Both the position numbers and the translations under genes were made by a program. From the NCBI GenBank assembly GCA_022605425.2, contig CM061254.1:124001-188000 (forward strand): a DNA stretch of 64,000 bases, read 5' to 3'. Positions 29,340 to 58,830 of this stretch are shown piece by piece. How positions within the stretch are numbered: position 1 is the stretch's first letter; every line of letters starts with the position of its first letter. This DNA is from Hamiltosporidium tvaerminnensis. Its lineage: Eukaryota; Microsporidia; Dubosqiidae. The notes under the pieces were generated by a model. The model worked only from the letters and a program-made list of their open reading frames with translations. It was not told the DNA's origin and did not search any database.

Positions 29340-32300
29340 AGGCCATAATGAAACAACTGAATTTACCAGTTTTTGTTTGAAAGGTATATTAAAGATGAAA
29401 ATACAGAATATCAAAGAAATAGGAAAGTATTGCTTGTGAAAGATTTAATCCCAAATTGATGCATATGCAATACCGATAGAGGAGAATCTTTTTTTTGCTT
29501 TTTATAAAGAGGAAACGTAATATCAGAAGAAATCTAATTGTGAATGTTTTTAGTTATTATTCTAGTCTATATTTTGGCGAAGTAAATATATTTAAAAAAC
29601 TTCTGTAAGATATTACGTAATAGAAACTAAAAAATGTATTTTTTGGTCGAAGTTTGTTTTGAACAGCCAGAAAGAGAAATAAATGAAGGTTTCATAAGAA
29701 ATTACAACATCTTTTGTTAAATATACAATATTTAGTTTAAATTGTGGGTTTGTATGAATATAATGTGCAAAAAAATGGCTTATAACACCAAAGTTAATTG
29801 AATCTTAGCAGCAGACATATTTCTCATAATTATGATTCTAAAAACCTGGCAAAATGTTAATCGGAATACTATAAATGTAAAAAGAACATAAAAAAGCCCA
29901 AAAAAATTATAAGGAACAAATTAAACTTAAAATGGATTTTATTATTTAGATTAATAGATTTATCGAACAATTACAGTAATATTATAGATTATCAAGTCTT
30001 CTAATCTTCTTTTATTATCAGCAGAAATCTTTGAATTTATTAAAACAATATGATTCAGGTGCTTTAACGATGAAGTAATTGAAATTGAAGAAAAATCGAT
30101 TTCGAAAGTGCAATCTTTGAAATGAAGATGGGTTAATAAATATTGTTGATTTATGAATTGGAATATTTCGTAAGTGATAACTGTTTTTGTTAGAATCAAT
30201 GTATTTAGTTTTGTAAAACACATTAGATCGTTCTCTTTAGGAGAATTTCTAAAAATTGAATTTTCCAAAGTAATAGAGAGATATTTAAGATTCTTAATCT
30301 GACTTAACAAATAAAAATCATAGATATCCAACGAATTTTCCGGGATTTTCAATCTTTCTAATGATGAAAATAGAGATTTTTGAAGAATATATCTTATCAA
30401 ACCTTCTTTAAGATTACACCTAGAAAGTCTTAATTCTTTAAGAAATTCAAATCGATTTAAGAATACCATATTTTCTTGTATAAGTTTAGAATCAGATAAA
30501 TCAATTACATACAGATTTTTCTCAAAGGAATATTCTTGATTCAAATACTTGAACTCAACATAAGATGGTAAGCTACAAAGTTTTAAAGTTTCCAAAACTT
30601 TAAACTTTCTTAAACATGCAATGGCATTAAAATCAAGACAGCTTTTACTTAAATCCAGTATTTTTGTGGATATGTGTAAAGAATTTAGATCTAGCATTTT
30701 TTGGTAGATTTTCTGAATTTAAATCTCGCAGAGACAAGCTTGTAGCTTTAAAGTTACTCGAATAAAAATTCATGAAATTTTTGTTTAAAAAACACCCAGA
30801 AATGTCTAATGAACTATAATTTCTTTGCAACAATGAAAAATATTTTGTTCTGTTGAGCCTTAAAAAATCTACATTTTTCATGCTCAAAAATTCCAACGCA
30901 TTGGATTTAACTAAAAAATTTATTACTTTATAGCCCAAACGAGAATTATCTAGTTTTAAATCACACAATGTATAAATTCCATCATATAATTCCAAATCTC
31001 TATTATACTTCCCGTCAAATGTAGACCATTACAAATCTAGATATTCTATTTTCAGATTTCTCAAAGATTTGAAAAACGCTGCTGTCAAAACAAGAGTATT
31101 TACTTTAAGTGTTTTCAATTTTGGAAAGCAAAAATTCAGATGGCATAAAAATTTACTATAAGCAGGTAATTTGCAGGTATAAAGAATCAGGGATTCGATT
31201 TTGCACAATATTTTTATAAAATTTAGAAAATCTTCAGATATGTTCACCCGCTCTAGTTCTAAAAATTTTATTTCATTATTCTTTTGCGAAATGATTGATT
31301 CAAAGACATGTGAATTGCAAAGGTCAAAATCTGAATCTATTACTTTTAGTGCTACATTTTCATATTTACAAGCTTTAACTTTTTCTTTAAATTCTGAATT
31401 ATATATATTATCATTAGAAATTTTAATACCTATAATCTTAAATAAGGAGATGAGCCAATAAAATAATCTAAGTTCATCGTCAGATTCTGTTTTTAAAATA
31501 TTGATTACTTCTGGGGTAGTTCGTATGTAAATTTCATCGATATTCTTTTTATCGAATAAATAGAAGTTAATTTGACTTTCCCTTTTCGAAAAAGATAATA
31601 TATTAGTATTTTTATCAAATCTTACATCGACATACTCAAAAAAGGTATGTAGAAAAGGTAAGAACAATGATTTTTGAATCAAAAATTTATTTTCAAGCGT
31701 TACAGTGTCTATGTTACTCGAAATATCGTTCTTGTAGATGATTAAACATGGAATTAGATGATTATATACTTTACATATTACATTCGATTCTGCGTAACAA
31801 AGCAAATCATAAAAAAGCTCTAAAAGAGTGATAAAACCATCGAATTTGATTTCTAAACACTTTTTATGATAACCGAAACGTATAATAAAAAGAAAAATTT
31901 CAAATGTTGTAATATCAACATTGGTTTTTGTGAATTCAGTAACATTATATTTTACATGATTCAATTCAGAAGCAATATATTTGTCAAAATATTTTGATTG
32001 AATTAGAAATTTATTGGAATAATCGAATGTTATACTAGTATTCGTTTTTACTATCCATTCGCTGTTTTCAAATTCAATCAAATCAGAGATCTTTCGTTTT
32101 TTATTTGAGTATTGCTCTATCGGTTTCATTTCTTCACTGCCAGATATACTTTCCTCATTATTTTGACAATGATTTGGTGAATCGCACAGGGCATCTGTTA
32201 TTATGTTTGACTTAAGTAAAATCAAATCGTGCCTTCTTTTTTTGCTTGAAATCTCGCTATCATTGGGGTTTGTTACGGAAGCAATTATCAGATCTGTTTC

Positions 32301-32700
32301 ATGTAGAAGAGTTGTAAGCGCAGGTGTATCCTCTGATACGTCCTGAAAATTTAATTTCGGCTGTATCTTTGACGCTCTTTTATCAGACGGACGAGCTTCA
32401 CAGAAAATATCTAAATTATCAAAGGTTTTATTGCAATTTACAGTAGAATTTTCGACTTCATTTAAAAAAGAAATTTCGATTTGCAAGCATGCACTTTCAT
32501 TCAACAAAAGTAAATGCAACAAAAATATCGGAAATATATCAAAGATGTTGAAGATGATCGATCTAGTAATACTCGTAACTTTTTTATGAATTACTTCCTT
32601 TTTATAAAACTTACAATAAATATTATCATCATTGATTTTATCCATAAAATAATTTTTTTATTGTAATTTATATATTTAATAAAGAGATAAAAAGGTTATA
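29340..32700 (-). repeat. Inverted segmental duplication, arm 1
   Basis: The segment holding the LRR pseudogene matches 55440-58830 in inverted orientation. Similarity includes the 5' flank just before the start codon (AAATTACAAT near 32670 read on the minus strand; AAATTACAATT near 55501) and a long 3' flank, where CTTCGACCAAAAAATACATT is shared at about 29640 (-) and 58515 (+). Identity is highest in a core of about 1.3 kb. Confidence 0.85.
29960..32645 (-). pseudogene. LRR pseudogene, inverted paralogue of the 55527 gene
   Basis: The paralogue at 55527-58208 is intact; this copy has two clear lesions. At 31029 a TCA codon of the intact gene is TAA here (Leu-Asp-Leu-stop-Trp-Ser-Thr against Leu-Asp-Leu-Ser-Trp-Ser-Thr). 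Near 30706 one extra C (CTACCAAAAAATG against CTACAAAAAATG) shifts the frame, which then continues to a shared stop at 29960. A three-base insertion (extra Ser in LPSYVEFKYL) keeps frame. Residues 1-480 are only moderately similar to the intact paralogue (same hydrophobic segment at about 28-48, same KKRR/KKRK motifs), while everything after that is almost identical. If translated, only the first 538 residues would be made: hydrophobic segment, basic motifs, helical region and the first LRRs. Confidence 0.85.
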
Positions 32701-32999
32701 AATTAAATTATTCAATAAGTTTACTTCAATAAAATTTTAAATTTAGGATTTTTATTAATTTTTATAATCTAAAATATAGTAATTTACTATATATAAAACC
32801 TGTTTATTGTAATAATTTCTCTTTGCACATTTTTGCAGTAAATAAAAATTATCCCATATTGGGTTATTTTCTATCTCGGTTTTGTTAACTCAGTTCTGCT
32901 TGATACTCGCTTAATTTGACTTTTTTATAGATCTACCACTTTTTTTATATTTAGAGTCGAGGCTCTAACCTTGCTGAATTTATTTAGATAGCGCTGTTT
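32701..32999. other. Spacer
   Basis: AT-rich, nothing seen. Confidence 0.5.
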
Positions 33000-35900
33000 C
33001 TTATTTTTGAAATCGTGATTAGCACGTTTTCCCTCATTGGCGTCTATGTGGAGTAAAGGTTTGGGTATATCTCTCGGATTCTAATAGAACATCTATTGTT
33101 TTTTTCAGCTTGTATCGAAATCGGTTTTGACCAGAAGCCTCTTGGCCGATTAGAAAATAGTTTCGATAGTTTTTCTAGTCCCATATAGTAGCTTAGATAT
33201 TCTAGAATTATTTTTATTGAAAATATTCAGAGTCTATTTTATGATTTTAATTTATAATAAGTGTTAATGTAAGCACATATAAGATTATAACTACATTATA
33301 CTTACATACAAAAGTCAAATTTTTTTTCCAAACAGTCGAATTTTCTTTTTATATGTTTGAGAAATTCGAAAAGGTTTAATGAAATAATTCGGCCTAGTTA
33401 GTGTTCCTATCTAATTTCTTTGCTAAAAAATTATGAGGCATTTTTAAATTCCCAGATCGCCTTTGTGTAAATCACCCACGTTATTCGAAACATTTTCAAA
33501 AAAGACTTGATCCGAGCATTTACTAATTTATTTATAGACATTTAGGTGTGTTTATCGTGATTTACGTGACGTGAAGGCATCGAGTTAATTAAGAAATTCA
33601 TCTAGTTTGTTCAAGGATATTTTTAAACTTGCTTCTAAATTATACCTAGCCTTACCAGATGGACAAAAATTTTTTAAATATTCTATAATTTCAAGGCATA
33701 AATTTCTATTTGGAACACCCGTGGATCGCATTGTAACGTGATGATATTTACATTCTTAAGCAATTCTGAAGATAATTGAGACGTAACAACTCATTATTTC
33801 TAGCATAATATAACTTTGAATGAAATTTTTTGCTCTGAATTGTTTCATTCGTCGTGTTTTTCAAGAACAGTCTTTCGTAATGCTTTTTTTAGATCTATAT
33901 TTTATTGGTACAAGATTTTTTTATATTATCACATATATGAGTTATATTCTTCTAGTGGTTGTTTATGTTTATTTTCTAAAAAATTCAAGAATATGGAAAC
34001 ATACTTTCGCTTTACTTTGATTCTATAAAAGACCATCTTTGTTTCATTAAGGCCGTTTCAGGTTTATATTACACTTTGGCATAAGAACCGCCTGATTTAT
34101 AATAGCAGAAGGGCTTGTATTCTATAACCGATAAAATCTGCATTTAAAATCGAAAACATAACAAAATATATGGTTTAACGTAATGCAGCAAATTTTAGAT
34201 ACGAAATAAATTTATTTTATATAATTAGGAAAGAAAGGTTTTAAACAGTTATTAGTCTTCATAGTTAACTTTAAATGACTTCTGCTTAAATTTTCTTAAA
34301 TATTATCTATTATTACTTTCTAACTTAACATAAATTCTTTAAAAAAAAAGCAGAAGTCTGTTCACAACACATTTCCCCAGCTGTGATTTCGCTTTATTAA
34401 TCTCTCGACATATTTCTCGTGTATTTTTATTTGTATCGAAGCTAAAGAAGCTTAATATCATAAATTTAAAAGAATTTTTGGCTATATGAAGTCTAAAATC
34501 TTCATATCGGCCAACTTTGTACATTTACAATGTTGTTTTTAACACAACTGATCGATGCATAACACAAAAAAACAAAAAGGAATGCCATCTCTCTTTATAA
34601 TCTTTTATTTTATCTTTTACGCTTGTTTCTTTAGGACATACCAATAGGAATATCTCACGTTCTTTTTTAGCCCGTAAAAATTTTCCGATACAATCGAAAT
34701 AATTTGATCCTCTTAAAAGCCCTCAATTTCCATGCTAACCTAAAAATTTATTTTTATGTGTATATTATTTTGCAGTCTTTTTTCCTTCCCTCTACCCTGA
34801 AAAACTTTTAAGGCTCTCTTTGTGCCTCTTGAAAACTTCGTAGCACACTTAACAGTGTTTCAGCTTGAATTCTTGCCTGCCAACTTGAAATTACTAATTT
34901 AAACTAACAATTTTTTGTTATATTAAAAATGTTTGTTCTATTGTAGTATCTTTAGTCAAATATTCGCATGTAGACCTCTGGATATTAGATATGTAATCAC
35001 ACATTTAAACCTGTCTGCTTGATGCTCTGTTTCTAGCATTTGTATTTCATAATATAAAAAAGTATAGTTAAAGAAAATTCGTAAATTTTTATATTCAAAT
35101 TACGGATACCAATAATTCCTGTGGATTTTCGGTTAGAAAGCTAATAAAACAGATAAATTCATGAAGCAAAATTTATGGTAAGCGAAACCGATGCAGAAAT
35201 AATGAAAAGTTATTTGGCGTAATATCAACACCCCCTTTCCAATAAGCAGCATGTTCACATTTTTATTAGACAAATCATATAATCGAATCTACAAATTTCT
35301 ATACTTTGCGATGTTAAGACCCTAAAGCAACTCGAAATTTTGTCTTTTTTAAGCTTGGTTCTTACATATATCGAGGTTTTCATAAGCATTTAATATTTAA
35401 TCTACTTAGTTTGAGCCAAGAAATATATCTATACTGTTTAAGTTTTAATAAAATTCTCGCATGTAATTTTAAGTGATTCGTGAAGCAAAGAGTTTTAATA
35501 AGCGATATTTCGTCTAGACATTCGCTTCAAAACTTTTGTCACAGGACCCTCACTCTCTATGTCTTACTTTCGGTAGGATTTGGCTTTTCATTGCGTGTTA
35601 TCTGGTCATAGAATGCCTGCGCAGCCATGATCTTAAGTGCAGCCTCGAAAATCATTATCAGCATATAGAATTACCATATTCACACTTTATTTTATTGCTG
35701 CAATTCAGAGTTCTCATCGTTAATTTACCTTGTAAAAACCTGAGTTTTAACAACTACTTCTCCTTGTTCCTTCTTCAAGAGATTCATACTTTTATATAGG
35801 TATAAAAATAACGTGTCAATAATGCACGCAATGCCGATAAATGACAACTCATCAGAAAACGTGATAAATTTACTCATCTTACATTAATTTTTATATATTT

Positions 35901-36130
35901 TACAGTTCGGTTATCATTTGCCAAATTTTTAATCTCTATGGGGACAGTTTAACCAAGGTTCATATTATAGTATGAGGGACTTACAGACCATTCTATTCTA
36001 GTTTTTTCTAAAGTAAATTTGTACGGCTATACACAAGAAGCTGTCTTTACTTTCGTCTTTTACAGGCAATAATATCAAACAACAATATTTCAGTTAATTA
36101 CCTTTCGAAGAGGCTGCATTTTTGAGATTC
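33000..36130 (-). mobile_element. Decayed R4-like non-LTR retrotransposon, copy E1
   Basis: Heavily eroded, recognised by matching landmarks with the better copy E2 at a constant offset. AAQAFYDQIT at about 35601-35631 corresponds to AAQVCYDEVA in E2 (offset 4390). A reverse-transcriptase active-site relic lies at about 34433-34472 (minus strand, ATGATATTAAGCTTCTT, from an original DDLKLL) within a frame that continues as DTNKNTREICREINKAKSQ; its E2 counterpart is offset by 4372. VNHDKHT at about 33560 corresponds to the KRHNKG box in E2 (offset about 4360). All frames are broken. The 5' limit near 36130 and 3' limit near 33000 are estimates; I could not recognise the C-terminal TWD block here. 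Open frames on the plus strand of this region are shadows. Confidence 0.5.
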
Positions 36131-37112
36131 CTCATATTATTATCAGTCTAATATATGAATCATCATTGCAAAGGATCGGGATATGTGTCAAGGAGGAAAA
36201 TAAAGCTACTTTTACAGATATTGGTAGGTATTTTATAATTGTTATATTTAGGTTAAATTATTTTTTGGCTCACCGATATTTTTAGACGATTTAAAACAAG
36301 ACATTTAAGCTCTTATAAACTATTTTCCGTGATGTTAAAGCCTTTTTTTTCAAGATTATATTTTAGCTTTTCCCTTTTAATTCTACTCGTATTCTTCTAT
36401 TGAGACTAAGATAATTTTATATTTCACTTTTTTTAGAATTTATTGATTTTAAATATCCATAAATCTATCATAAAAATAGAAAAACACTTAAGAGATTGCA
36501 ATAAAATTTAAACCTAGATCTATCACAAAAGAGATATGATATTAGGAATCTCTAGACATAACCAATATCTTTCTAGTATTTCGTATTTATTTTAAGGAAT
36601 TAAGTAAGAATATTGAAAAAAAATCTGGCCACATGCATTTTGCCAATTTAGTCTATAATTAATAAAAATTAGGCAATAAAATCGAATATAGACTCATACT
36701 CCTGTACAGCCTTTTTTTTAATATGATATAATATTATAGTACTTATTTTTTGAAAGAATTCTTCCAATAATTGGATATAAAATCATATTTTTGTATTATA
36801 GAGTAAGATTTCTTTATATCTTTTAAAATATTAAAATAAAAGCATATATTTGAATTTTAAGTTGCAAAATAAGGCTTTTCAAAATTTTATTTCACTATAT
36901 TACATATAAATACAATAATCAATAGATGAAACAATAATAAAAGTATGAAATGTGAGAAAAATTGATTATATTTTTTGGAGAAAAAAAATCAAATGTAATC
37001 TTTCAAACAACTAAATAAATTAATTTTTCTTTTTAAATATTTTTGTTAGAAAAAAGTAATCTGTGAAATAAACTAATAATACGAAAAATAAAATTGATAT
37101 GTAATAGCAAAA
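36131..37112. other. AT-rich spacer between two retroelement relics
   Basis: Very A/T-rich, no gene or repeat seen. Confidence 0.5.
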
Positions 37113-40100
37113 GATTTATTTAATAAATTTCTAGGTTGAAATATTTTATCACGGTTTTATATATTTTCTTCCGCCTTTACACATCTCTATATTATTTTCT
37201 TCTTAATCCGACTCTTCGTTTTTATTTATTGTCGGTTACTTCACTCAGTGCCTCCATCTGAAAACAGAGATGTATTATTTTTATTTTAAAATATTTAACA
37301 CTGCATACTTCATATATTGCATTTTTTAATTGAGATGTTAGTTATTCGTTTATCTCTGCTCTTCCAATGATACTTATTGCCGCTCTTTTCCAGTACTTCG
37401 GTAATTGGTCTCGAATCAAGTTTTCTTTCTCGATTAAAGCAAAGCTGTTAGAGCGTCTTCTTGGGTACTATTGATTAAATCTTTGTTCGTACTTTCATAG
37501 GCATTTGCTGTTTTTGAGTATGATTTATGCTATTTTGTTATAATAACATCCCAGGTCGTAACACAAGGGGTGATATCAACACTAATTTTATATATAAGAC
37601 CTAAATTATTGGATAAAAAGCCATATTCCTAAGTTTTGCAGTTCCAACTATTTCTGCTGTGCATTTTGTAATGTAATTCCTACTCATTGTGTGCTATATT
37701 CTTTTTATTCTTATCTAAAAAATATGTGTAGGGTTCATTCTTTCGGATTTTAACATGGGTTTTATTCTGGTGTAAACGCTTATTTCAACTGCTCGTCCTT
37801 AAGAACTTCTTGAACTGAGTAACTTCTAATTCGTTAAGAAGACTTAAATGAATATTTCTATAGAAGAAGAAGTATGGTGTGCAACCCCTTTATTATGCCT
37901 CTTGGTGTAGTAATGACTGAGCATCTTCCCACATCGTTTAGTCCAATTTATTACTGTTTACTAGATTTATGAACGTGTTTGCCCATACATTTTGCTCCTC
38001 AAATACATTTCTATCCTAGATATAGCAGAAAAATGCTTCATAGTGTGGCTCGATATTCTCTTTTAAAGCCATCATGTTTAATAACTTACACTTACGAGGC
38101 CATTTTTCTTGCTATATATAACTTTAAGGGGGGTTTTCGTTTTTTCATTTTGTTATATAATTTACAAACTGAGCTTTCTTCTAAATTTTTCTTGGTAAAT
38201 TCTTCTTCCAATAAATATTTTACCTATATGAGGCTTTTTATTGGTTCAAGAAGTGATTTATTAGTATTCTCCACCTCGTAGATGTTGTTTTTCGAGTTGT
38301 TATTTCTTTGCTTGGCTTCGAACGTCTAAGTTTATAGAAACATATTTGCATTTTGAAATGAAACACTATATAGCTTCTTACGATTTCGATTTTGGGAAAC
38401 AACAAACGGTATTTAGATATTAGGCAAATATTGATATTGTTTTTTCAAAAAAAGTCCCGCGCATTACACCACCTAACCCAAAGAATTCAGCCTGTCAAGT
38501 TGAACTACTCCTCATTGATAGTTGATAAACGATATCGCATAATGATTAATTTAAGAAAAAAAATTGCGTTAAATCTAGTGGAAAAGTCTTCCGACGCTTA
38601 ATATCGGTTTGCTTCTTACTTAATCAAATGAGAATTGGTTCAAACACCCTGTTATTCTCTATTCCTACCAAATTCTCATAAAAACTAACATTTTCTCACG
38701 TAGAATATCTTAGTTACAATTTATAATGTGCCTAATTCTACTTTTATTTACAATCAAAATGCCCTTTAAAGTTCTTGCATTGGTTATCTATAGCTAAATG
38801 TATAGCTATATATATCAAGAAGCTTAAGATCATAAAATGTGCAAGCGATTATTGGTGAATGAAGGCTAAAATAATGGGTTTTTCGCTTTTGTGTATTTCT
38901 CATTGAGTCTCGGCACAAAGAATCTTACACATAAAAAAAGCAAATGTGAGAAAATATAGCTTGAAATGTCCTCTCTTTATCGTCTTGCTCTAGGTTTTTT
39001 TAGTCTTTATTAAAAGACGATTTTTTATTTTTATATTATCACCTTAGAAACTCTATAATAGAACCAGTAAAATGCCTTCTTTTAGTGCGTCGAGTCAATT
39101 ATTCATGGCTGCTGAGTCTATGGTTTATAACACCAACCAACGGCCTTTTGTATTATATTCTATACACTCTGTTATGAGAAATTTCAGTACAGCTTGCACT
39201 CTTGCTTCTTGTGTATTTCTAACGCTCCAATTGGTTCTATGCAAACTCCCGAGCTTTTCTAATTAAATTTAAACGACTTTTGTTATACCTTGTCGTATAC
39301 CTTTAGATTTTAAACATTCGGGTGATTAAGCTGCCACCAGTGCTTCGTCGCCAATTCTTTTCGTTATCAAATACTTAAGCCACTATAAAACCATAAGCCG
39401 AGGTGTCTTTCGAAACATACAACGCTTTCAATAATATAAATATGTTTGTCAAAGGTTGTTGGTTCCAGATAAAGAATTTATAAACAGTATCAATTCTAGC
39501 AGCCTTCAAATCCAAATGCCAATTAGTGATGCTAACGACTCATTATGTAAAGAGGGATAATCGGAAGATTTTCAGCTATAAATGCAATTAAATAATCATC
39601 AATGACTATTGCATCATTATTTTTCTAACTTATAGACTAAAAACCTACAATTCTCTCGCGGATAACCACATATTTGCAAAAACACAATTAATCGACCTTG
39701 AACAAATTTAACATACGATTTTTCTTTTTTTCATGGATTTTACTTATATAAATCTCAAGTTTTTCAAAATAAATATTCCAGACCCATTATTCTCAACCAA
39801 ATTCACGAACGAAACTTTATAATTAAGTTTAAATAACCTCTTTGTAAGGTTTTTTTCGCGATTCTTGCTTCAAAAAATAAGGCTTTTCATGTGAGTAAGG
39901 CGTCTCTGTAAAATATTTAGGCAATACTTACCTAATAATTACATCTTAATGTATTCTTTCTTAACAAATTTTAGGTTCACTTTATGTGCTACCTCGTCAT
40001 AGCATACCTGCGCGGCTTAAATACTATGCACGCGTTCGTAATCGATTCAAAGACACCTGTTCCGTTATTTTCACCAATTAGTCGATTTATAAGGTCCTAA

Positions 40101-41797: not shown

Positions 41798-41806
41798 ACC
41801 GTTATA
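41798..41806 (+). promoter_or_regulatory. ACCGTTATA element before a secreted-family gene
   Basis: ACCGTTATA lies 10 nt before the ATG at 41817. ACCGTTAAA stands before the family member at 45605, and ACCCCTTAAA before the one at 5597. Confidence 0.4.
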
Positions 41807-41816
41807 AATGTATAAA

Positions 41817-45571: not shown

Positions 45572-45580
45572 ACCGTTAAA
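45572..45580 (+). promoter_or_regulatory. ACCGTTAAA element before a secreted-family gene
   Basis: ACCGTTAAA sits 24 nt before the ATG at 45605. It matches the elements before the related genes at 41817 and 5597. Confidence 0.35.
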
Positions 45581-45604
45581 AAATCAGAAATAAAGCAAAT
45601 TTTT

Positions 45605-46085: not shown

Positions 46086-49000
46086 TGGTTAATTAAATAT
46101 TCATTAAAATTTATGTTTTTTCACGGTTTTTCTATATTATAAAGATTAACTTTCAAAACACTTTTTATGTAATTTTTGAGAAAATGTGCTCGTTTTTATA
46201 TTTTTGATTTTTCATAGTTAAACAAAAAATATTAGGATTTGATTTTTCTTTTATTAAGTTATATGTTTCATTTTAAACATTTACAAACAAATTCATTGTA
46301 CTAATAGAATTTTAACAATTCAGTTGTATTCTAACCGTCTCAAAATGCAGAAATTTTTTATAGTTTAATATAATCAGATTATGAAATATTTTGAAAAAAA
46401 CTTAAAATCCCACCGGAAACTAAATAGATGAATATGGTAAAAGAAATACCGAATTTTGGATTTATTGTTATATGCTCACAGAAACTAGAATATTACAAAG
46501 AAACCTAAATAGGTATCAATTAAAATTGGGTATTATAAGGCAAAAATATAGCGGTTAAATAAGGAAAGCAAATATTTAAAAGTGAGAAAAGTATTTATAC
46601 AAGAATTCAAGTTAACACTAGCAAAATTAATTAAAATACAAATTTAAAACTTTAAGATTACATGCGTATTAAAAAATAGGGTTTTGTTTGCTTTGAGTGA
46701 GGCATATAAATCTGTAAAATATTTGTTACAATTACTTCATCTTCTTGCTAAAAAACTAATTTTCATAGATTTGTGTAATCTTCATAATTATCAATGAATC
46801 TCTATATGTATTGTAAAGACAATGGAATCAAATATTATAACAGTTTTTGACAAATTTTTATTAATAGATCGGTTTTATTTTGAACCAATAAATTTTTCTT
46901 TCTAAATCTATATTTCTCCATTCAATTCATAAAGATAATGATAATTTTCGAATTTATTTAAACATTTAATCATATATTCATTGGCTCCATGAGTTTCTTT
47001 ATAAATATTTTTATATATTTCTATTTTTTATGGAAGTATATTAGTTGTAGCTATTACGATTGAATGTATTCAAGAGATCATTATGAAATATCGTTCATTA
47101 CAATTCTATTGTTGATTAAAAAGATTATTTATATTTAGATATTCTGTAAATTGTAGATTGATCGAGAGATTATTATAAATTCTATCGTATTGTTTACTTA
47201 GCGTCGATAGTTTGGATTTAATAATGCATATATTTTTGTTTTGGTTGGATTCTTTATTTTCTTGACAGAAAAATTCAACTGTGAAAAAACATAGGCTCTC
47301 AAACTATATTTTAGAATTTATATATTTAATCTATAAATAATTTTGATTTAAAAATATACTTAGTTCGTTTTTCAAGGCCTAAAATAATTGTAAAAACACC
47401 AGGTATAACTATTGTGCTCCTAAGTTCAGAAATAACTTTATCTTCAAAATTAATGAGTTTCTAGCGCATAGATAAAAATATAACATAAGCGCTTTGTTTG
47501 ATAAATTTTATATTTTATTCTGTTTCTTCTAACGTATCGTGTTTTTTTGCTGAATATGTCCCATTACCCGTCAATTTCATAAAAAAATAAAGTCTATGCG
47601 ACTCTAAGAATGTTTAAAAAATTGGCAATTTTAAATATTCTGTAGCTACAACAAGCTTTTAATTAAAGAAAAAATATGGAGTTAGAATTCCAATTAAATT
47701 CTTTCTAAGTTGTTTTGTTGCAAAAAAGTTACTGAGAATATATCTCCTTGAACAAAAAAATGTTAATGAATATGAGATATCATATAGATTATCAAGCAAG
47801 TTGTATTTAGTCGAGAATTCTTAAAATGGCAACACAAGAAATAGTTATAAGTGCTCTGAAAAGTTGTTAATTCTTTTATTTTATTTTTTAGAGTGATATT
47901 TAGGATAATAGAGAAAATTCTTTGTAACATTTTTAGATCCGAATTTATCAATATTTAGTCTTCTGAGGAATGTTTTATTATGTTTTCGACTTTGAATGCC
48001 TAATTCTCTTCAAATTCATAATTATTAGAACGAATTTTAATGAAATTATTTCAGCTTTTAAAGATATTTTTCAGGAAAATGCTTTTTTTACAAATATTCG
48101 AATACTGCTTTGGATAATCATATAATTTTAATGTTTCAAATATATGTTATAAGTTATATTTTGGATGTAATAGACAAACTTGTTTCCGGTTTTAAAGACT
48201 TATTTGGCTAATTATAAATATAAATAATTTTAATCCCATTTTTTGATTTATACCTCAAGAAATTCAACGTTTTTTTGCAATAAGTACTATTAAAATATTA
48301 TAATAATCAAAATCACAGTATAACTTGAAATGCTAGTAATAGAATTATAGTTTAAATAAACTACATCTTTTGGTATGATTGTGATTTTCCATATATTGTT
48401 ACAGGCCAATAAAACAGAAAATTATTTTACAAAGGCAATTTACCCGGAACTATTGGCTATTTAAATTTATATGAATAGAAAAATTAGTTAGTTTTTTTTG
48501 AAAGAAAGGTTATGTTGAACATTTTTTTTATAAGATTGAATAAAAACAGCCATGATTTGCAAATAAATTTTAAATTGTAAATTAAAAGGTACCTTTGCAC
48601 CTTAGATAGAGTTCATGAGATTATAACAACTAAACACGATATTATACTTTTTATAGTTTTTTTTGAAGGTATTTGGAAACGTATTCTAGCGTTAAAGACT
48701 ATAAAAATTATATTAAAAAAATATCATATCAATTTTCACTGCAATGGTAACATTCTTTTAAGTTAAAAAATTATAAGTACTGATTATATCTCTTCATATA
48801 TTTTTAAGTAATCTTTAAAGGCAAAAAGTATGAATTACACACGTCTCTGTTACCAAAACCTCTTAATTATTATTATAAAGTTCTAAATTCACCTTTTTAG
48901 TTTATATACAACCTGAAGTTTAAGAAGATTTTAATTGTGCCAAAATGCGATGCGGATTATGCCTGAGTAGCAGCTTAAATTTATAAAAATACCAAGTTGG

Positions 49001-49129
49001 GTGTAAACTACATTTATATTTATGATGAGATTCTTTTTTAGACGCAGAGAAAAATAAAAGTTTAAGCGTGCGTTAGTTCACACCGTACTTCTTTTAATTT
49101 ATGTAATAAACATTAATTTTTGCGACACG
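46086..49129. other. 3-kb AT-rich spacer
   Basis: No gene or repeat recognised. Confidence 0.5.
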
Positions 49130-49860
49130 TAAGAAACTCTATTTAAAATTATCAAATCTTTATAAAACATTAAGTGTTATATGTGTTTTTATGACATTAA
49201 TGCAGTCCTGGATCTAAAATAAATAGCTGCTACCTTAACACTCTATTGATATGTCCTGCGATACCTACGTTCCAAAGCCTTCCACCTACAAGTATCTAGA
49301 ACCTAATTAATAGGCGAGGAAGTTGCTCGAAGTTCTTTATGTTTGTTGCATGGAGTAGGATCGGATACCGAAGCCACCCCGGGGCTTCCCGATACTATGC
49401 AGCATTCCCACTTACTTTACGCTTTCCGAACCTGATAAACCTTTAGCGTAGATTTTCTTAAAGACTTATATGGGGTCTACGCAGACAGTGCAATTGCATA
49501 CGAACGTGTATAACCTACATCTTAGCTTTCTTAGTTGAAGAGGTTTATTTTTTATTTTTATCGGGCGCCAAATCTTCTAACCCGAGTGAGAAAGGTTAGG
49601 TTTCCATGCTTTTATTTGGAAATCACCTACAAGTTCAGCTTTGGGCTACATTCTAGTTACATAAAGAACTAGAAAATAGATTTGACGGAAAAGTTTCGCC
49701 ATTTCGTAAATTTTCTTCTCGTCATACAAACACCTATGGAACAACCAAATATGTAGTGTTGTTTTATTCCTACCAAAAATCCAAACAAAGACTTCCACAC
49801 CAATTTCACATATTCGTACCAAGAAGAAGGTTTTTTATTTGATTATCTTTCCTCTATCAG
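49130..49860 (-). repeat. Dispersed repeat A, copy 2 (inverted)
   Basis: Reverse complement of the block at 9430-10200, diverged but collinear over about 0.7 kb. Shared runs read on the minus strand include TTTGTTTGGATTTTTGGT, AAGCATGGAAACCTAACC, CACTCGGGTTAGAAGA, AAGTGGGAATGCTGCATAGT, CTCGCCTATTAATTAGG and ACGTAGGTATCGCAGG. It has a perfect 6-bp hairpin GAAGCC-ccggggt-GGCTTC where copy 1 has GAGCCC/GGGCTTC. The gene-like frame of copy 1 is not preserved; a different frame is open here over the same stretch. Confidence 0.8.
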
Positions 49861-52469
49861 ACACGTAGAAATATTCATATAATTTTCTTATATAAAAAAA
49901 AGATTAATATTTATAGAAAGTAGAGTAAATTATTAAAGGAATTTCTATATTTAAAAGAAAAGAGTAAAAAAATAAATGGATCGACTATAAAGATAAATGA
50001 TGAATAATCCAAAGCAACCCAATTATATATTCAAATTATTTTTTTTAAAGTAAAAAAAGTAAATTTAGAAAACTTAATCTGGCAAATATTTATTTAGAAA
50101 GGCGGTTTGATTCTTTTTAAAAAGCTTTTTTCGTACAAATGGTGATTTTGATTTATTGAGTTAAAGCAAAAAAACCAATTGTGAATTTTTAAAATAACGT
50201 AGACATTAATCGTTCTAATAATTTTATTGTTTTCTGATCTGACTTTAATACGAGTCGATATTAGTTATGAAGTAAATTATATTAGATATTTGGACATACC
50301 CAGTTTAAATAAATATATAAATGAGGGAAGTTCTTCTTGTGATTTCGGTTTTAGATCTAGAAAAAAACGGTTTTATAAACAAAGAGATTAGCTAGGAACA
50401 CCACAAAAATTTTAATGTTTGGAAGAAAAAACATATTAAATTTACATCCAGATAACTGAGTTAAAAAAGAATGGTATCAGTGCTCAGGATTGCTGATGAT
50501 TAATTAATTGGGCCGTCGTAGCTAGTAGAAGGGCCTAGCACAATTGTATTAGAAAGAATTCTGACCTAATAAATTACCCGCAAAAAAGGTTTTCTGAATT
50601 TTTTTTGGAAGCTCTAGACACGAAAATAATTCTAAAAAAAGGCAAAAAATTATCCTGAAAACAAAATATTGGGAATGAGAATCTAATTTAAGACAAAGAA
50701 GAAATTAAAATGATTGTTCTAAAGATAATAGAAATGAAAAAAAACCTAGAAAAATTGGTAATGAAAAAAATAGAAAAAACTTAAAATATCTATAATTTTC
50801 ATTCTTATGCTTATCTATCGAAGATTTTAGTTAGAAAACTTTATTTTTTACAAAAATATCAAGTTATATATTCATTGTACTTTCGAAGTTTAGCATTAAG
50901 CGCTAAAACATAATATCTAATTATTATTTTAACTGATAAATTTATTTTTACAAACAGTTGAAAAATTTTGACTTTATGTTTGCCTGTATTAACCATTATT
51001 TCCTAAAATATTTATTTGATTCAGATTTCAATCTTTAATCTTGTAATTGCATATATTAGTTGCTATTTTACTAAATAATATACATATTGGTTTTAGTTTC
51101 CTAAAATTTAATTCAGAATTGCTTATTATTAAAAGTGGAGGTTCCATTTATTATCGCGTTTTTTTTGAATATTTATTTTGAAATTTCTTCGTACATATCA
51201 AATTATTCATTTTGTCATTTTCATATCATTATCACTAGATATATAGGTTTATGTATTTATATGTAATATACAGGAAATACAATTTTGATAAGACTTTTCG
51301 GCAGCTAAAATTAAAAATATATTTTTCAGGTTTATATTTTCAAAAAATATTAGGAAATTATACTCTATAAAGTCGAGCTAAAAATAGTTTATATGTAATT
51401 ATTATAAGATTTTGAATGTATGAGGATATGATCTGAGGGCAGTGACGCTGCCTAAAGAGTATGACTCTACTATAAAATCTTTTCTTGCCTATTTTTCATG
51501 ATTATAAAACCTTTTTCAAAATATTTATGATTAGATGTTCGATTTCCATTGTCTTGCTTCTTTCCTTATCGAATAGAAAATCTGGAAGAGAATAAAATCA
51601 TTGGAAAATTCTTAATATTTCATTTTTTTGTAGAAGTGTACTAGATCCAGATTTGATTTTAATCTTTATAAATAACTTTTTCAAAAATTATAATAGATTT
51701 AATGATATTTTAAAAAAGAATGCCACCATTTTAGAAAAATTACAATTTTATTCGTCTCAACAGAAGAATATGGCAGAAAAGAAATGTAAAGCGAAAATAA
51801 AAATGAAAGGCTTCAAACCCTTCAAAAAATATATTATAAATATGCAAATTATGTTTCAAATTGGTTAAAAGTATATCACAAACTTACAATCTATCTGAAT
51901 TTAACATACCAATTATTTACTACCAATAAATGGTCATAGGAGCGCCCATGTCGATCGCTTGACACTATGGCTAATTTTTCTGCAGTAATGCCACCTCTTG
52001 GACTCTCAAAAGCAGGAAAACCACAATAATGCCCACGTCAGAAAGTAGTCAACTAAAATAAAACGTTAAATATAAAATTTTACTTGAATTAAATTTAAAC
52101 TAGCTTCTATTCTTATGCATATGAAAGAGATTTAAGGAATGTCTGGAATATGGTCAGACTTTCTGGGTTAGTATATTGAGAAAATTGGCGAATATTTACA
52201 TCGATGGGTCAAATTTTAGCACATAATGAAAAGAAAAGAATATTAAGGCAAAGAGGTATGAAGAGCATTGTAATATTGCCAGAATTCTTAACGCCCCATG
52301 TTTCCGGGTAGATACCGACCGTTATTTAACGCAAGAAAGAAGTACTTGTATTATCATAGGTATTCTCGAAAGAGGTGACCCAAAAGTAGTGCTCGAATCC
52401 AAAAATGCTTACCTTAAATTAGTTCATAGTAAAGTCTTAACTTATATAGTTTAATAATATTGGAATGTG
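49861..52469. other. Spacer with one coding-like island
   Basis: Mostly A/T. At about 51910-52060 a minus-strand island of higher G+C reads RGHYCGFPAFESPRGGITAE then KLAIVSSDRHGRSYDH with one stop before it. It is protein-like but I cannot name it. A plus-strand 71-codon frame at 51653 is Lys/Asn/Ile-rich and looks like chance. Confidence 0.35.
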
Positions 52470-53480
52470 CTAAATATCATGTCTTGATAATGATAACAGG
52501 CAGAACATGCATTTTTTTGGGTGGCGCAGGTATGCCATGACCAGACAAAAAGAAAAAAAAGGCATTGGATCTTGCTTAGAAGAAAAACATAGAAAGTAAA
52601 ATTTATAAGCCAATAAATTATAAATGTTGCGTCGAGTAACTTTCAGACCAAAAGAACACATTTTCTGATAAAGAAAAACGGCAGAAAAGCCAGAAGAAAC
52701 ATACTTTGGCTTAATAAGTATTATATTTTCGCAGCTTAAGATAGAAAGATTGAGGATTTAGATGTTTATGAAAAAATTCTTTGGTTAAAAGTTGATGGTT
52801 TATCAAAAAAGAGGTGACTTTAATAAAGCTATTTCGAGGTTGATTTCAGTAAGTTTTATATGAGCGTGTTGATTCCAAGCTTAAGATTTGTCTTTTTAAA
52901 TGTGAGTTTGTTCTTTCCGATACCTTATTCAAAAATACAATCTTTTTTAACGATCCTATATTTCTTTTATATCAAACTTATATTAATGGTTTTTTCTTCG
53001 CATCATAAATTAATTATTGTTTTAGTCTCGAACGAATAACTGTAGGAATTAATGCTATAATATTTTCTATATCAAGAACTTAGGAATTCTTAAATATATT
53101 TTTGATATTATGAAATACATATGTTTAAGAAAATCGCTATTATCTGAAGGTTTGTCTAGGGCCTATATATTATTATTTACAGGTTTATTAGCAAGAGCTT
53201 AGACTACTGAGCGATTTCCGATAACCCAAACTGATAAAGTTTACAAATAACTGTAATTTGATGCCGTTCACAAAAAGAACCGGTATTATTACATACTAAA
53301 CTTTATTAAAGGCGGTAGGGTTTTGCGAGACGCAAAAAAGCAGGTGTTTTGAACGTTATTTAAGTAAACTGTATACAAACCCGATATAATTCTACATCCA
53401 TTTTGCTGTAAAGGAAGTTTTTGGTTATTGTGCTATGGATTCAATTCAATGGCTCGAATCATCTGATTAGATTTGAAAAT
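52470..53480 (+). mobile_element. R4-like retrotransposon relic, fragment E4
   Basis: Two landmarks of copy E2 reappear in the same order on the plus strand. GTGGCGCAGGTATGCCATGA near 52522 matches the AAQ block of E1/E2. About 0.9 kb further on, GGCGGTAGGGTTTTGCGAGA near 53310 is followed near 53415 by KGSFWLL, the counterpart of KGRWLVL in E2 (0.86 kb from its AAQ block). Everything between is broken. Confidence 0.4.
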
Positions 53481-55439
53481 ATCAAAATGAAAAGACCTGG
53501 GATGAGCATTTAAATAAATGATATTAGTTTAGAGGTTTTTTTGTGAAAATCGGTTTTTGCTTCTCATTTTTGTGTCGTGTACAAGTCAGTTCGCTGAACT
53601 CATTTAGAATAACCAAGTGGCCGAAATGAAGATATGGTTTTATATATAATCATATTTTGTAAGATGTTGTTCGATGGTTTCTCTAGCTAGGAATACACTG
53701 AAAAAAAGACATGTGTAGAAATATGTAGAAAGATTAAGAAAATTGATACAAGTAAAACGTGTTTTTTCTGAAATTACTACTTCTTCTGGAAAAGTTTCTA
53801 TGATGAAAAAAGTAATGTATATTAGATAATAGCAAAGGGCAATTACACAATAGTTCATGAGAAACTAATGATGCGATTTAAATAAGAATATAAAAAATAT
53901 TTATAAAATTAAATAATGAAAATCATTATATGAAAAACATTTTCATACATTTAGATCAATGATATAATAGGAAAAGTTCCGATTTTAAATAGCGGATTTT
54001 GCTGGATTTCAGAATGCGATGCGTGCTTTCGATAACATAAGGTGGTTTATTTGCCAAGGAGCCTCTGTATCTATCAATATAAAAACCCAGACGAGCCATT
54101 CATAGTATTGTGTTGTAAACGAATGTTTTATTTTTACTCTTAGATGCTTTGAAGAAAAATAAAAATTATCACCAAAAGAAACAGCAATCTTAAAGGTATA
54201 AAATCAAACTCCAATACTTGCACAAACCGAAATTATTGAAAAGTAAGATATAGATTTGAAAGAGACAACTCAAATAAATTTTACAAAAAAAATATAATTC
54301 GAAATTTATAGATAAGATATCTTTCAAAGTTATATTATGCTAGAAATAATGGGTTATCAAGTGTCGGAAATTTTCTAAATGGCATGGAAAACGAATATAA
54401 CAAACGTTATGAAAGCCATCTGGTTTTTCAAAAAGAATGTATGTATCGAAATAGAAGAGATGTTTTAAACTTCTAGTCAATCTGATAAGACTGGGTATAA
54501 TTTGCAAACTAGGTATAAAAACACCTAAAGAACATAAAAATATGGCCTTAATATTTGTTTTAATAGCTTCATCTATTTGATCATAAAAAATATAAATCAT
54601 TGTTCTGCTTATAAGGTAAGTGTTACTCGGCTTAAATTTTTTTAAAAGGTTCTAAATAACGGAGGACAATATTATAACAACCTATGGCTAATTCATAAAT
54701 ATATTAAAAATATTTATTTTGGATAAACGATTAGCTAAGAATACTAATTTAGGCAGAAGTACTTCGTATAAGTCTTTTCAGATTCTTTAAATGAAAAAGT
54801 ATAAAAGTAAGCCTGTTTAGCAAATATTGCAATTCTTATCTGTAATTTAAACGCAGATACTATCCTTTATAGAGTAAAAGAGCAGATATTATCACTAATA
54901 TCATAGAATAGACACCAGAAAGTTTCGAATATTTGTAATTTACAAGCTTCGGGCTACTACTTGGACCTAAAAATATATTTACTAGATTTTTACATGCTTT
55001 AAAGTTATTCTTAGTCAACAAAAAACTTAACGAAAATTAAAAGGATTTTGGATGGTCGGGAAACCCGCGAGGCATTATACCCTAGCCAAAGCTTCACACC
55101 TATATTATTGAAGTATAGGGTGTTAATAAAACATCAGCAAAACAAATGGGCTTCAATGTGGAGATAAAATGACCAAGATTATAATATAATTAAACTATTG
55201 ACAAGAGGTCTTATTATAATATCACGAGCCAGTTTAAAACGAGAAGAAGCAGACCAAATCTAGCGAAAACGAGATAGAAAATAGCCCGAAATTAGAAAAT
55301 TTTTATTTATTTCCAAAATATGCAAAGAGCAATCATAATTGCCGATAACCTGTGGGCAGCACGGGAAATATACTGTATTGTAGTGGGGAACCAAAATTCT
55401 TGAATTAATGTATTTAATTAACGTAAATTAAAAAAATCA
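53481..55439. other. Spacer
   Basis: No supported gene. Minus-strand frames of 72 codons (53640-53858) and 86 codons (54340-54600) exist; both are hydrophobic or Phe/Ile-rich and lack a CCC motif, so I do not call them. Confidence 0.4.
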
Positions 55440-58400
55440 TTTAATTTATTACTTTTTTATCTTAAAAAAGGAAATCTTCTTATCTTTAGATTAGATATAT
55501 AAATTACAATTAAAAAAATTTTTTTTATGGAAAAAAATAAGGATGATATCTGTTGTAAATTTTGCAGAAATAAATTAGTTTATCGAAAAGCTACTAATGG
55601 TTGTAGAATTTATCTTTTTAGCATTTTTAATATATTTCAGATATATTTGTTACATTTTATTTTGTTAAATAAATGTGCATGCTTGCAAATCGAAATTTCT
55701 TTTTCAAATGAAGCCGAAAATTTTGAAGTCAATTGCAATGAAGCCGTTGATAATTTAAATAACTTATGTGAAAACTGCGCATCTGATCGAATAGCTACGG
55801 AAAGAATTCCTGAATCAAATGTTCAAGACTTCTCGGATAATACTCCCGCGCCTGCAACTCTTCTAGATAGAAATGATCACATTGTTGATCCTGGAACGAT
55901 CCCTATTATTACAGGGATCTCAAGCAAGAAAAGAAAGCAAGATTTGTTTTTGCCTGAATCTGACGAAATATCAAACACTCAATACAGTTCATTAATTCAA
56001 CGTCAAACTAATGAAAAAATTGTATCCCAAGGTGAAGAACTACAGCCTTTGGATCTTAGAACTAATAAAAAACGAAAGATCTCTGATTTGATTGAATTTG
56101 AAAACAACGAATGGATTTTAAAAACCCCTACAAGTATAATATTTGAATATTCGGATAAGTTTTGTATTCAATCTAAATATTTTAATAAATATATGAATAC
56201 AGAATTGAACTATGTAAAATATAATATTACGGATTTAACAAAATCCAAGGTTGATATTGCGACATTTGAAATATTTCTTTTCGTTTTACGTTTTGGCTAT
56301 GATAAGAAGTGTATGAATTTACAATTAGACGGTTTCATCACCTTTTTACGCCTCTTTTGTGATTTACTTTGTCATGCAGAATCAGATGTAATAGGGAATT
56401 TATATAAAAGTCTACTTCCAACATTTATCATTTATAAAAACGATATTTTGGTTAATATTAATATCGAAACACCTGAAAATATATTTTTAGTTCAAAAATC
56501 ATTGTTCTTACCGTTTTTAAATACTTTTTTTTCTAATGTAGAAGTAAAATTTGATCAAAATACTAAAGAATTGTCGTTGTTGAAGAGAGAAAGTTCCTTA
56601 CACCTTTATTCATTTGATGCAAGGAACATCGATGAAATCTACATACGAACTACACCAGAAGTGATAACCTTTTTAGAAACCAAATCTAATATTAACCTTA
56701 AATTATTTTTTTGGCTTATGTCACTATTTAAGATAATTGGTATCAAAATTTCTAATGATAATATATATTATTCTGAAAGTAAAGAAAGAGATCGGATTTG
56801 TAAATATGAAAATAGCGCTCTGGCATATTCTTCTCCGAATTTAAAACTTTTCTATTCACATACATTGAAATCAATCATTTTGGATAATAATAATAATGAA
56901 ATAAAATTTTTAGAACTGGAACGGGTAAACATAACTGAAGGTTTTCTAAATTTTATAAAAATATTGTCCAAAATCGAATCCCTGATTCTTTATACCTGCA
57001 AATTACCTGCTTATAGTAAATTTTTATGCCATCTGAATTTTTGCTTTCCAAAATTGAAAACACTTAAAGTAAATACTCTTGTTTTGACAGCAGCGTTTTT
57101 CAAATCTTTGAGAAATCTGAAAATAGAATATCTAGATTTGTCATGGTCTACATTTGACGGGAAGTATAGTAGAGATTTGGAATTATATGATGGAATTTAT
57201 ACATTGTGCGATTTAAAACTAGATAATTCTCGTTTGGGCTATAATGTAATAAACTTTTTAGTTAAATCCAATGCGTTGGAATTTTTGAGCATGAAAAATG
57301 TAGATTTTTCAAGGCTCAACAGAACAAAATATTTTATATTGTTGCAAAGAAATTATAGTTCATTAGACATTTCTGGGTGTTTTTTAAACAAAAATTTCAT
57401 GAATTTTTATTCGAGTAACTTTAAAGCTACAAGCTTGTCTCTGCGAGATTTAAATTCAGAAAATCTACAAAAAATGCTAGATCTAAATTCTTTACACATA
57501 TCCACAAAAATACTGGATTTAAGTAAGAGCTGTCTAGATTTTAAGGCCATTGCATGTTTAAGAAAGTTTAAAGTTTTGGAAACTTTAAAACTTTGTAGCT
57601 TACCATATGTTGAGTTCAAGTATTTGAATCAAGAATATTCCTTTGAGAAAAATCTGTATGTAATTGATTTATCTGATTCTAAACTTATACAAGAAAATAT
57701 GGTATTCTTAAATCGATTTGAATTTCTTAAAGAATTAAGACTTTCTAGGTGTAATCTTAAAGAAGGTTTGATAAGATATATTCTTCCGAAATCTCTATTT
57801 TCGTCATTAGAAAAATTGAAAATCTCAGAAAATTCGTTGGATATCTATGATTTTTATTTGTTAAGTCTGATTAGGAACCTTAAATATCTCTCTATTACGT
57901 TAGAAAATTCAATTTTTAGAAATTCTCTTAAAGAGAACGATCTAATGTGTTTTACGAAACTAAATACATTGATTCTAACAAAAACAGTTATCACTTACGA
58001 AATATTTCAATTCATAAATCAACAATATTTATTAACCCATCTTCATTTCAAAGACTGCACTTTCGAAATCGATTTTTCTTCAATTTCAATTACTTCATCG
58101 TTAAAGCACCTGAATCATATTGTTTTAATAAATTCAAAGATTTCTGCTGATAATAAAAGAAGATTAGAAGATTTGATAATCTATAATATTACTGTAATTG
58201 TTCGATAAATCTATTAATCTAAAATAATAAAATCCATTTTAAGTTTAATTTGTTCCTTAGAATTTTTATTGGCTTCATTATATTCTTTTTACGTTTATAG
58301 TATTCCGATTCGAATGTGCAGGTTTTCATATTATGACTATTATCAATTTTTACATCTATGATTTAATTTGACTTTGTGTCGGACGCCATTTTTTAATATT

Positions 58401-58830
58401 TTTTTATTTATATAAACCTACAATTTTATGTAAATATTGTATATTTAACAAGAGAGATTGTGGGATATTATGAAACCTCCGTTTATTTGTCTTTCTGGCT
58501 GTTTAAAACAAACTTCGACCAAAAAATACATTTTTCAGATTGTGTACACGTAACATCACAAAAGACTATATGCAATGTAAATTTACATAGTTAAGACATA
58601 GACTAGAATTTACTTAACAGCATTGCCTATTATGTTTCTTGTTATATTATGTTCTTTTTTGTAAACTCCGCAACGATTCACCTGCATTGGTATTGTAGAA
58701 GCCCCGATTTTCCATCAAATCAGTTTACACACAATGCTCCTCTCATTCTTTGATATTCACCAAGCCCATCTCTTATATACTTGAACAAAAAAACTCACAG
58801 ATTTTCTGTTATTTCATGTAGCTTGTTTCT
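55440..58830 (+). repeat. Inverted segmental duplication, arm 2
   Basis: Counterpart of 29340-32700, carrying the intact gene. The 3' flank stays alignable to about 58800, with shared runs such as TTTCTGGCTGTT, TAGACTAGAAT and TTCTTTGATATTC, at falling identity after about 58258. Confidence 0.85.
55527..58208 (+). CDS. Leucine-rich repeat protein with N-terminal hydrophobic segment (893 aa)
   Basis: This is the intact member of the LRR pair. Residues 1-27 are polar with several Cys. Residues about 28-48 form one hydrophobic segment, a signal anchor or uncleaved signal. Residues 50-190 are acidic and Ser/Thr-rich with two basic motifs, SSKKRKQ (about 132-138) and NKKRKISD (about 180-187), which resemble nuclear localisation signals. 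Residues about 195-300 (FEYSDKFCIQSKYF ... LLCHAESDVIGNLYKSLLP) are helical and arranged like a BTB/POZ fold, which is only a shape resemblance. From about 455 to the end are irregular LRRs (KIESLILYTCKLP, LKTLKVNTLVLTAAFF, LCDLKLDNSRLG, SSLDISGCFLNKNFM, LYVIDLSDSKL, LKELRLSRCNLKEG). No CCC motif is seen; the 5' flank is shared with the pseudogene. Membrane-anchored or exported, ligand unknown. Confidence 0.85.
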   Translation: MEKNKDDICCKFCRNKLVYRKATNGCRIYLFSIFNIFQIYLLHFILLNKCACLQIEISFSNEAENFEVNCNEAVDNLNNLCENCASDRIATERIPESNVQDFSDNTPAPATLLDRNDHIVDPGTIPIITGISSKKRKQDLFLPESDEISNTQYSSLIQRQTNEKIVSQGEELQPLDLRTNKKRKISDLIEFENNEWILKTPTSIIFEYSDKFCIQSKYFNKYMNTELNYVKYNITDLTKSKVDIATFEIFLFVLRFGYDKKCMNLQLDGFITFLRLFCDLLCHAESDVIGNLYKSLLPTFIIYKNDILVNINIETPENIFLVQKSLFLPFLNTFFSNVEVKFDQNTKELSLLKRESSLHLYSFDARNIDEIYIRTTPEVITFLETKSNINLKLFFWLMSLFKIIGIKISNDNIYYSESKERDRICKYENSALAYSSPNLKLFYSHTLKSIILDNNNNEIKFLELERVNITEGFLNFIKILSKIESLILYTCKLPAYSKFLCHLNFCFPKLKTLKVNTLVLTAAFFKSLRNLKIEYLDLSWSTFDGKYSRDLELYDGIYTLCDLKLDNSRLGYNVINFLVKSNALEFLSMKNVDFSRLNRTKYFILLQRNYSSLDISGCFLNKNFMNFYSSNFKATSLSLRDLNSENLQKMLDLNSLHISTKILDLSKSCLDFKAIACLRKFKVLETLKLCSLPYVEFKYLNQEYSFEKNLYVIDLSDSKLIQENMVFLNRFEFLKELRLSRCNLKEGLIRYILPKSLFSSLEKLKISENSLDIYDFYLLSLIRNLKYLSITLENSIFRNSLKENDLMCFTKLNTLILTKTVITYEIFQFINQQYLLTHLHFKDCTFEIDFSSISITSSLKHLNHIVLINSKISADNKRRLEDLIIYNITVIVR

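Follow-up and report, generated by a model that had tools for sequence, protein, structure and literature searches.

How can two genes that have drifted well apart over one half of their length be almost identical over the other? The question is raised by a pair of leucine-rich repeat (LRR) genes in a 64,000-nucleotide stretch (the window; positions 124001-188000 of contig C9) of the genome of Hamiltosporidium tvaerminnensis, a microsporidian that infects Daphnia magna and whose assembly is described as 17 contigs of 21.64 Mb with a GC content of 26.60% (PMC10542269). Gene A (55527..58208, + strand; positions are those of the window unless a contig is named) is an intact gene of 893 codons with a predicted LRR solenoid at about residues 456-893, and gene B (29960..32645, - strand) is its broken inverted paralogue. 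Comparison of the pair with the rest of the searched genome (21,638,905 bases on 17 contigs) and with proteins of other Hamiltosporidium assemblies suggests that it is better described as one case of recurrent local gene conversion across the Hamiltosporidium LRR families, non-reciprocal where its direction can be polarised.

Gene B stays open for 538 codons (32645-31029) up to an in-frame stop at 31029-31031. Relative to A, it also carries a one-base length change at 30704 and a three-nucleotide in-frame length difference at 30563-30565. Both genes lie in the arms of an old inverted duplication, A in the right arm (51239..59126, +) and B in the left arm (29037..36927, -). The inverted collinear homology spans about 8 kb, with four pieces upstream of the genes that are 69-73% identical, and permissive scoring extends it to about 10 kb at 67% (27311-37142 with 51025-60835). 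The arms of 3.4 kb given by the original prediction, made from the letters of the window, were thus too short; its positions and strands for both genes and both lesions of B hold, as does the inverted arrangement, while the spacing it put at 22.7 kb measures 22.9 kb from gene end to gene end. As it also proposed, arms in this arrangement might promote inversion of the DNA they enclose.

The transition from divergence to near-identity is a step. In 100-base bins along A, identity to B is 66-83% over 55501-56900 and 92-100% over 56901-58300, then 61% in 58301-58400 and 54-81% from there to 59300. The best segment of the alignment, taken as the conversion tract, covers 56892..58259 (+) in A and 29910..31280 (-) in B; in A it begins at about codon 455 and ends 51 bases beyond the stop codon. 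It is 97.6% identical, as against 73.9% outside, and was equalled in 0 of 5000 column shuffles. All three lesions and length differences of B fall within it. A/B differences are dense up to 56891, number six in 56892-56969 and are absent from 56970-57141; those within the tract amount to 2.4% and are spread along it. The predicted abruptness and the 3' end just past the stop, with diverging flanks beyond, are therefore borne out, the 5' edge being moved from 56970 to slightly before it, at 56892.

Silent sites follow the same boundary. Synonymous divergence (dS) between A and B is 0.67 in the 452 codons that precede the tract and drops to 0.06 in the 411 codons inside it, so that the two halves of the gene are clearly unequal. 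A third, intact copy just outside the window, C (C9:118063-120740; 892 residues), provides a control: over the same two stretches dS goes from 0.55 to 0.56 for A/C and from 0.65 to 0.54 for B/C, and in the part of the tract that excludes a C-like patch (56970-57860), A/C and B/C stand at 0.75 and 0.72. Because A/B divergence falls inside the tract while A and B keep their usual distance from C, comparison of the three copies supports ectopic gene conversion, the reading already proposed for the tract. A partly recent duplication without replacement is ruled out, since the tract is flanked on either side by the older collinear homology.

The C-like patch is itself informative. Within the tract, A is 95.6% identical to C over 57883..58133 (+), with dS of 0.12 as against 0.75 in 56970-57860, and B carries the same patch at 30035..30285 (-), where the best B/C segment reaches 94.7% and dS is 0.20 as against 0.72 (0 of 5000 shuffles). 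A shorter patch shared by A and C lies 5' of the tract at 56262..56349 (+), 88 bases at 96.6% (0 of 2000 shuffles); here P0002, the A allele of another assembly, differs from A at nine residues, and A equals C at seven of the nine. These patches indicate that at least three copies, A, B and C, have exchanged sequence. The nested C patch, a converted gene D in the same window and the family-wide pattern had escaped the original prediction.

The family-wide pattern comes from 48 copies in two families (42 and 6 copies), merged by hand from scored genome hits, with weak hits omitted (C12:956864, locus L056, and low-scoring extra matches). An open frame of at least 750 codons is present in 24 of the 48, and 184 pairs share an alignable stretch of at least 300 bases. 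A tract was called where the best segment (break-even identity 87.5%) held at least 100 columns and more than 500 diverged homologous columns lay outside it. Twelve whole-length near-identical pairs (one near, 11 not near) were set aside: a17/a20, a41/a43 and ten pairs among a34, a36, a37, a38 and a40. The rule yields eight tracts, A/B, A/C, B/C, D/E, d52/d54, a24/a25, a24/a31 and a25/a31, each matched by 0 of 500 shuffles. They occur in 8 of the 23 pairs lying within 60 kb on one contig and in 0 of the 149 others (Fisher 3e-8); restricted to pairs with a background identity of at least 66%, the counts are 7 of 9 near pairs and 0 of 9 others (p 0.002). Five tracts join inverted copies and three join direct copies.

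The tracts differ in which part of the gene they cover. Gene D (20446..22785, - strand; 779 codons) belongs to the second family, and its partner E lies outside the window at C9:193627-195965. The tract in D (21643..22755, -; codons 10-381) is 97.8% identical to E, as against 68% in the homologous rest, with dS of 0.06 as against 0.95-1.00 outside. For d52 and d54 (loci C5:716954 and C5:743859) dS is 0.058 in the tract and 1.02 outside. Both pairs are near-identical over the other half of the gene than A/B, and the a24/a31 tract is internal (codons 228-371). Tract dS is 0.067, 0.060 and 0.058 for the three long tracts (A/B, D/E and d52/d54), 0.030 for a24/a25 and 0.13-0.16 for the short tracts a24/a31, a25/a31 and A/C. 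With 11-17 silent changes each, the ages of the three long tracts are indistinguishable; their similar dS may reflect one common episode or chance, and either suffices. Gene F (13971..15926, + strand), an A-family member with a Pfam LRR_6 match, shows no tract with any copy under the fixed rule of the 48-copy scan.

Is the process still at work, or are these the remains of a single past? Older drafts labelled H. tvaerminnensis or H. magnivora provide comparison proteins, several of them partial; the protein search, with 7996 candidates scored, matched nine proteins of Hamiltosporidium besides the B piece of the window itself. The draft tags CWI36 to CWI39 may stand for individual isolates. The isolate of the present assembly is described as having also served earlier drafts (PMC10542269), and it may therefore be the source of one of the two H. 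tvaerminnensis drafts. In the CWI38 draft, P0002 is the A allele and P0004 the B allele, partial at 593 residues. P0004 is B-like over residues 1-389 (153 of the 170 sites at which reference B is unlike P0002, with 9 P0002-like), P0002-like over residues 414-448 at 19 of the 19 sites where reference B differs from P0002, and carries its own residue over residues 546-593 at 8 of the 47 columns in which A, B and P0002 have one residue in common. This pattern indicates, at the protein level, that A overwrote B in the CWI38 draft over a different, overlapping stretch.

The unlinked pair d52/d54 behaves in the same way. Over residues 1-50, P0014 of H. magnivora follows d54 at 38 of 38 sites, and it does so again at 150 of 159 sites from residue 466 on; over residues 376-440 it follows d52 (19 of 20, 8 of 8 and 7 of 8, counted in windows that overlap in part), and over 441-465 it is mixed (7 and 7 of 15 sites). 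In the present genome d52 and d54 differ already from residue 376 onward, so the tract is shorter here. The D/E tract, by comparison, probably predates the split of H. tvaerminnensis and H. magnivora, since P0013 of H. magnivora is closer to E (99% to both pieces of it) than D is within the tract. P0009 from one species and P0010 from the other share 50-64% identity over about residues 393-542, 72-80% over 101-193 and 88-100% elsewhere. With the same pairs showing different tract ends in other assemblies, conversion appears to recur with lineage-specific ends. One further draft protein, P0006 (CWI37_1603p0010), compared with C in windows of 50 residues, is 90-100% identical over C residues 362-561 and 48-72% identical further on. 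No counterpart closer to P0006 than C was found in the present genome; its 3' half without a close match could reflect an allele missing from the assembly, a difference in copy number or a chimera in the draft.

Two of these events can be polarised, both at the protein level, the remaining events being unpolarised: A into B in the CWI38 draft and d52 into d54 in H. magnivora. In both, the recipient is broken and the donor intact in the present genome, where the longest frames are 893 (A) and 772 (d52) codons as against 538 (B) and 377 (d54). For the large A/B tract, A is likely to have been the donor as well, the simpler reading given that P0004 carries its own residues over 546-593, though less securely so than for the CWI38 event. 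The lesions of B, which were predicted to have arisen after the exchange, do lie inside the tract, and they would postdate it if A was the donor.

An old inverted duplication followed by ectopic gene conversion, as one case of a recurrent local process, is very probably what the locus records. An inverted duplication of about 8-10 kb would have given rise to A and B, whose identity later fell to about 74%. One of the two would then have received from the other about 1.37 kb, almost all of the predicted LRR solenoid and some 50 bases of 3' flank, by a route we infer to be non-reciprocal homologous repair, and B would subsequently have gained its stop and frame change inside the copied stretch. 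More generally, same-chromosome neighbours in either orientation would overwrite segments of each other, the segments and their ends varying by assembly and between the sister species.

Several points weigh against this account. The 60-kb limit was picked after the tracts had been seen (the widest spacing, A/C, is 58.8 kb) and pairs share copies (the trios A, B, C and a24, a25, a31), so the Fisher value makes the independent evidence look stronger than it is; 15 of the 23 near pairs have no tract. The draft proteins, several of them partial, could be chimeric assemblies, although chimeric joining requires sequence common to both copies at every switch, and the reference copies differ at the outer switches of P0004 and P0014. 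With regard to the donor, only 3 of 412 residues in the 3' part separate A from P0002, as against 12 amino-acid-changing differences between A and B in 411 codons, so that the large tract seems to predate the A/P0002 split; together with P0004 residues 541-593, which are about 83% identical to both A and B, between converted and unconverted, this makes A no more than a likely donor of the large tract.

Could the 3' half simply evolve slowly? Constraint on the LRR domain would require no exchange, and a ratio of nonsynonymous to synonymous divergence (dN/dS) of 0.21 for A/B in the tract would fit it. However, silent sites are about tenfold lower for A/B only, A/C and B/C staying at 0.54-0.56 in the same codons; near-identity runs 51 bases beyond the stop; and D/E and d52/d54 are near-identical over the opposite half. 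Since A/C and B/C divergence does not fall across the boundary, slow evolution is ruled out by the third copy and retains a negligible probability. The near-identity might instead be produced during assembly, by placing reads of one copy on the other, with the lesions of B as polishing errors. Short-read polishing is weakest within near-identical stretches, and the one-base length change of B especially could be an error of this kind; the assembly is reported to combine PacBio continuous long reads and Oxford Nanopore reads, polished with Illumina data (PMC10542269). Yet the 2.4% of A/B differences are spread along the tract, tracts occur in eight pairs over three contigs, and the tracts seen in proteins of other assemblies end elsewhere. 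The Nanopore read N50 of 32.68 kb also exceeds the A/B spacing (PMC10542269). An artefact as the general explanation is very improbable, and collapse of the A/B tract itself is unlikely.

Copying through reverse-transcribed mRNA, in place of DNA repair between neighbours, could account for the 3' edge of the A/B tract (58259), which falls 33 bases beyond the first base of an AATAAA-like signal (58226), at about the position of a possible mRNA end; such signals are reported to precede the commonest 3' ends by an average of 20 nt (PMC10542269). Other tracts, however, are 5' or internal, as in D/E and a24/a31, and a complementary DNA should reach distant copies too, whereas all eight tracts join neighbours and none was found in the 149 other pairs. 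This route is thus quite improbable, and repair between neighbouring DNA copies is preferred. An adaptive reading, in which segmental conversion diversifies host-exposed LRR proteins, is compatible with such repair and adds a purpose to it. The lineage-specific tracts, the involvement of the LRR domain and the half of the copies that lack a long frame are consistent with it, and for Spraguea it has been proposed that broken LRR copies could serve as a source of variation (PMC3749934). Copying in both polarised events, on the other hand, ran into the member of the pair that is broken in the present genome. Any benefit of this kind is possible but doubtful.

In the structural model of A, residues 1-199 have a predicted local distance difference test score (pLDDT) below 50 and are followed by a middle region and, from about residue 456 to the end, by an LRR solenoid (mean pLDDT 68.1). 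With profile matches to LRR receptors and ribonuclease inhibitor, the model assigns A to the LRR solenoid fold, and the tract, starting at about codon 455, nearly coincides with the predicted solenoid. The D family is probably LRR too, although profile matches are weak: LRR_RPS2 matches three of five members (best E 2.4e-4; D itself 0.11), the only match among solved structures is a weak one to NLRC4 (E 0.26 and 0.73), and one relative of D carries the source annotation leucine-rich repeat. By eye only, A has a hydrophobic stretch at about residues 28-52. From predicted secondary structure, residues 200-310 (window 56124-56456) look BTB/POZ-like by eye, a resemblance that is unconfirmed: none of the nine proteins scanned had a Pfam match to this domain, structure matches cover residues 456-893 only, and a model of residues 200-310 alone is uninformative (mean pLDDT 35.5). 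By analogy with the LRR families of other microsporidia, as described in PMC3749934 and PMC3486916, the proteins may act at the host interface.

Other repeats are present in the window and among the LRR copies. A second inverted-repeat pair (9524-10146 and 49172-49791; 79-85% identical in pieces) is possibly a mobile element, and a dispersed repeat of about 730 bases occurs at C9:111439-112167, 133460-134189 and 173136-173863 (one pair 95% identical, the other two 78-79%). Repeats of 18 bases at 6194-6393, within the open frame 5597-6406, encode a repetitive acidic tail. No tRNA was found in the window, and no RNA family reached its gathering score there. Five LRR loci (L034, L036, L037, L038 and L040, at C17:232032, C16:339140, C15:802574, C15:433009 and C12:311896), none of them with a 600-codon frame, are 92-95% alike over nearly the whole 4 kb fetched, flanks included, and apparently represent an LRR remnant carried by a dispersed repeat. 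L017 (C5:825282) and L020 (C7:141309) are 98.5% identical over 3161 columns on different contigs, a recent transfer or duplication between chromosomes.

The mechanism itself is already known, and the interest lies in its setting, its lineage-specific ends and its direction. Near-identical tracts in diverged duplicates, with abrupt ends, a drop at silent sites and a preference for same-chromosome neighbours, are the features of interlocus (ectopic) gene conversion, from which the Hamiltosporidium case does not differ in kind; what it adds is the nested three-gene patch and the lineage-specific ends, in a microsporidian. The ves genes of Babesia bovis and the mosaic variant surface glycoprotein (VSG) genes of Trypanosoma brucei are likewise described as copying segments within a parasite family that also holds broken copies (PMC7485966, PMC3708902). 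In those systems silent or broken copies donate to a functional one; in the two polarised Hamiltosporidium events copying ran into the copy that is broken here, the reverse of a pseudogene archive. Tract dS of 0.03-0.16 also points to an evolutionary scale and not to one within an infection.

Within the microsporidia, the subtelomeric EXT repeats of Encephalitozoon cuniculi, with their inter families, combine mosaic recombination with multigene families that contain pseudogenes, but these repeats are reported as 3.5-23.8 kb long at chromosome ends (PMC4704409), whereas Hamiltosporidium exchanges gene segments. The tract-bearing copies lie at least 60.8 kb from the nearer contig end (a25 on C17), with those on C9 at 118-196 kb, those on C17 from 60.8 kb and those on C5 at 430 kb, and both A and B at more than 150 kb; they are thus away from the ends, though not every contig end is a telomere, and some copies without tracts are nearer (C8:26697, C17:31019). 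In Spraguea lophii and Trachipleistophora hominis the LRR families are likewise large and lineage-specific, and some of their members are fragmented or may be dead (PMC3749934, PMC3486916); they are set beside the Hamiltosporidium families here by description. The phrase gene conversion is absent from the main texts of these two papers, and none of the titles and beginnings of abstracts listed in a literature search reports conversion among microsporidian LRR genes.

What would such a process mean for these parasites? Large LRR families are known in several microsporidia, and unexpressed or broken copies have been suggested to feed variation (PMC3749934). Tentatively, Hamiltosporidium may run a continuing system of segmental conversion on paired, locally clustered LRR genes, in which neighbours swap modules, either the N-terminal half or the LRR solenoid. 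If so, each lineage would carry its own chimeras and the species would keep making new LRR combinations, a microsporidian counterpart of mosaic surface-antigen families that draws on intrachromosomal pairs and not on a subtelomeric archive. Whole-length trees and dN/dS of such genes can mislead, and call for caution. The exchange can be read directly, in eight bounded tracts confined to neighbours among the tested pairs and with ends that vary by assembly and species, so that the rate, direction and selection of conversion become measurable in a parasite of Daphnia, a host widely used for the study of coevolution. Recurrence with lineage-specific end points thus gives access to the question of how LRR genes are diversified in such parasites.

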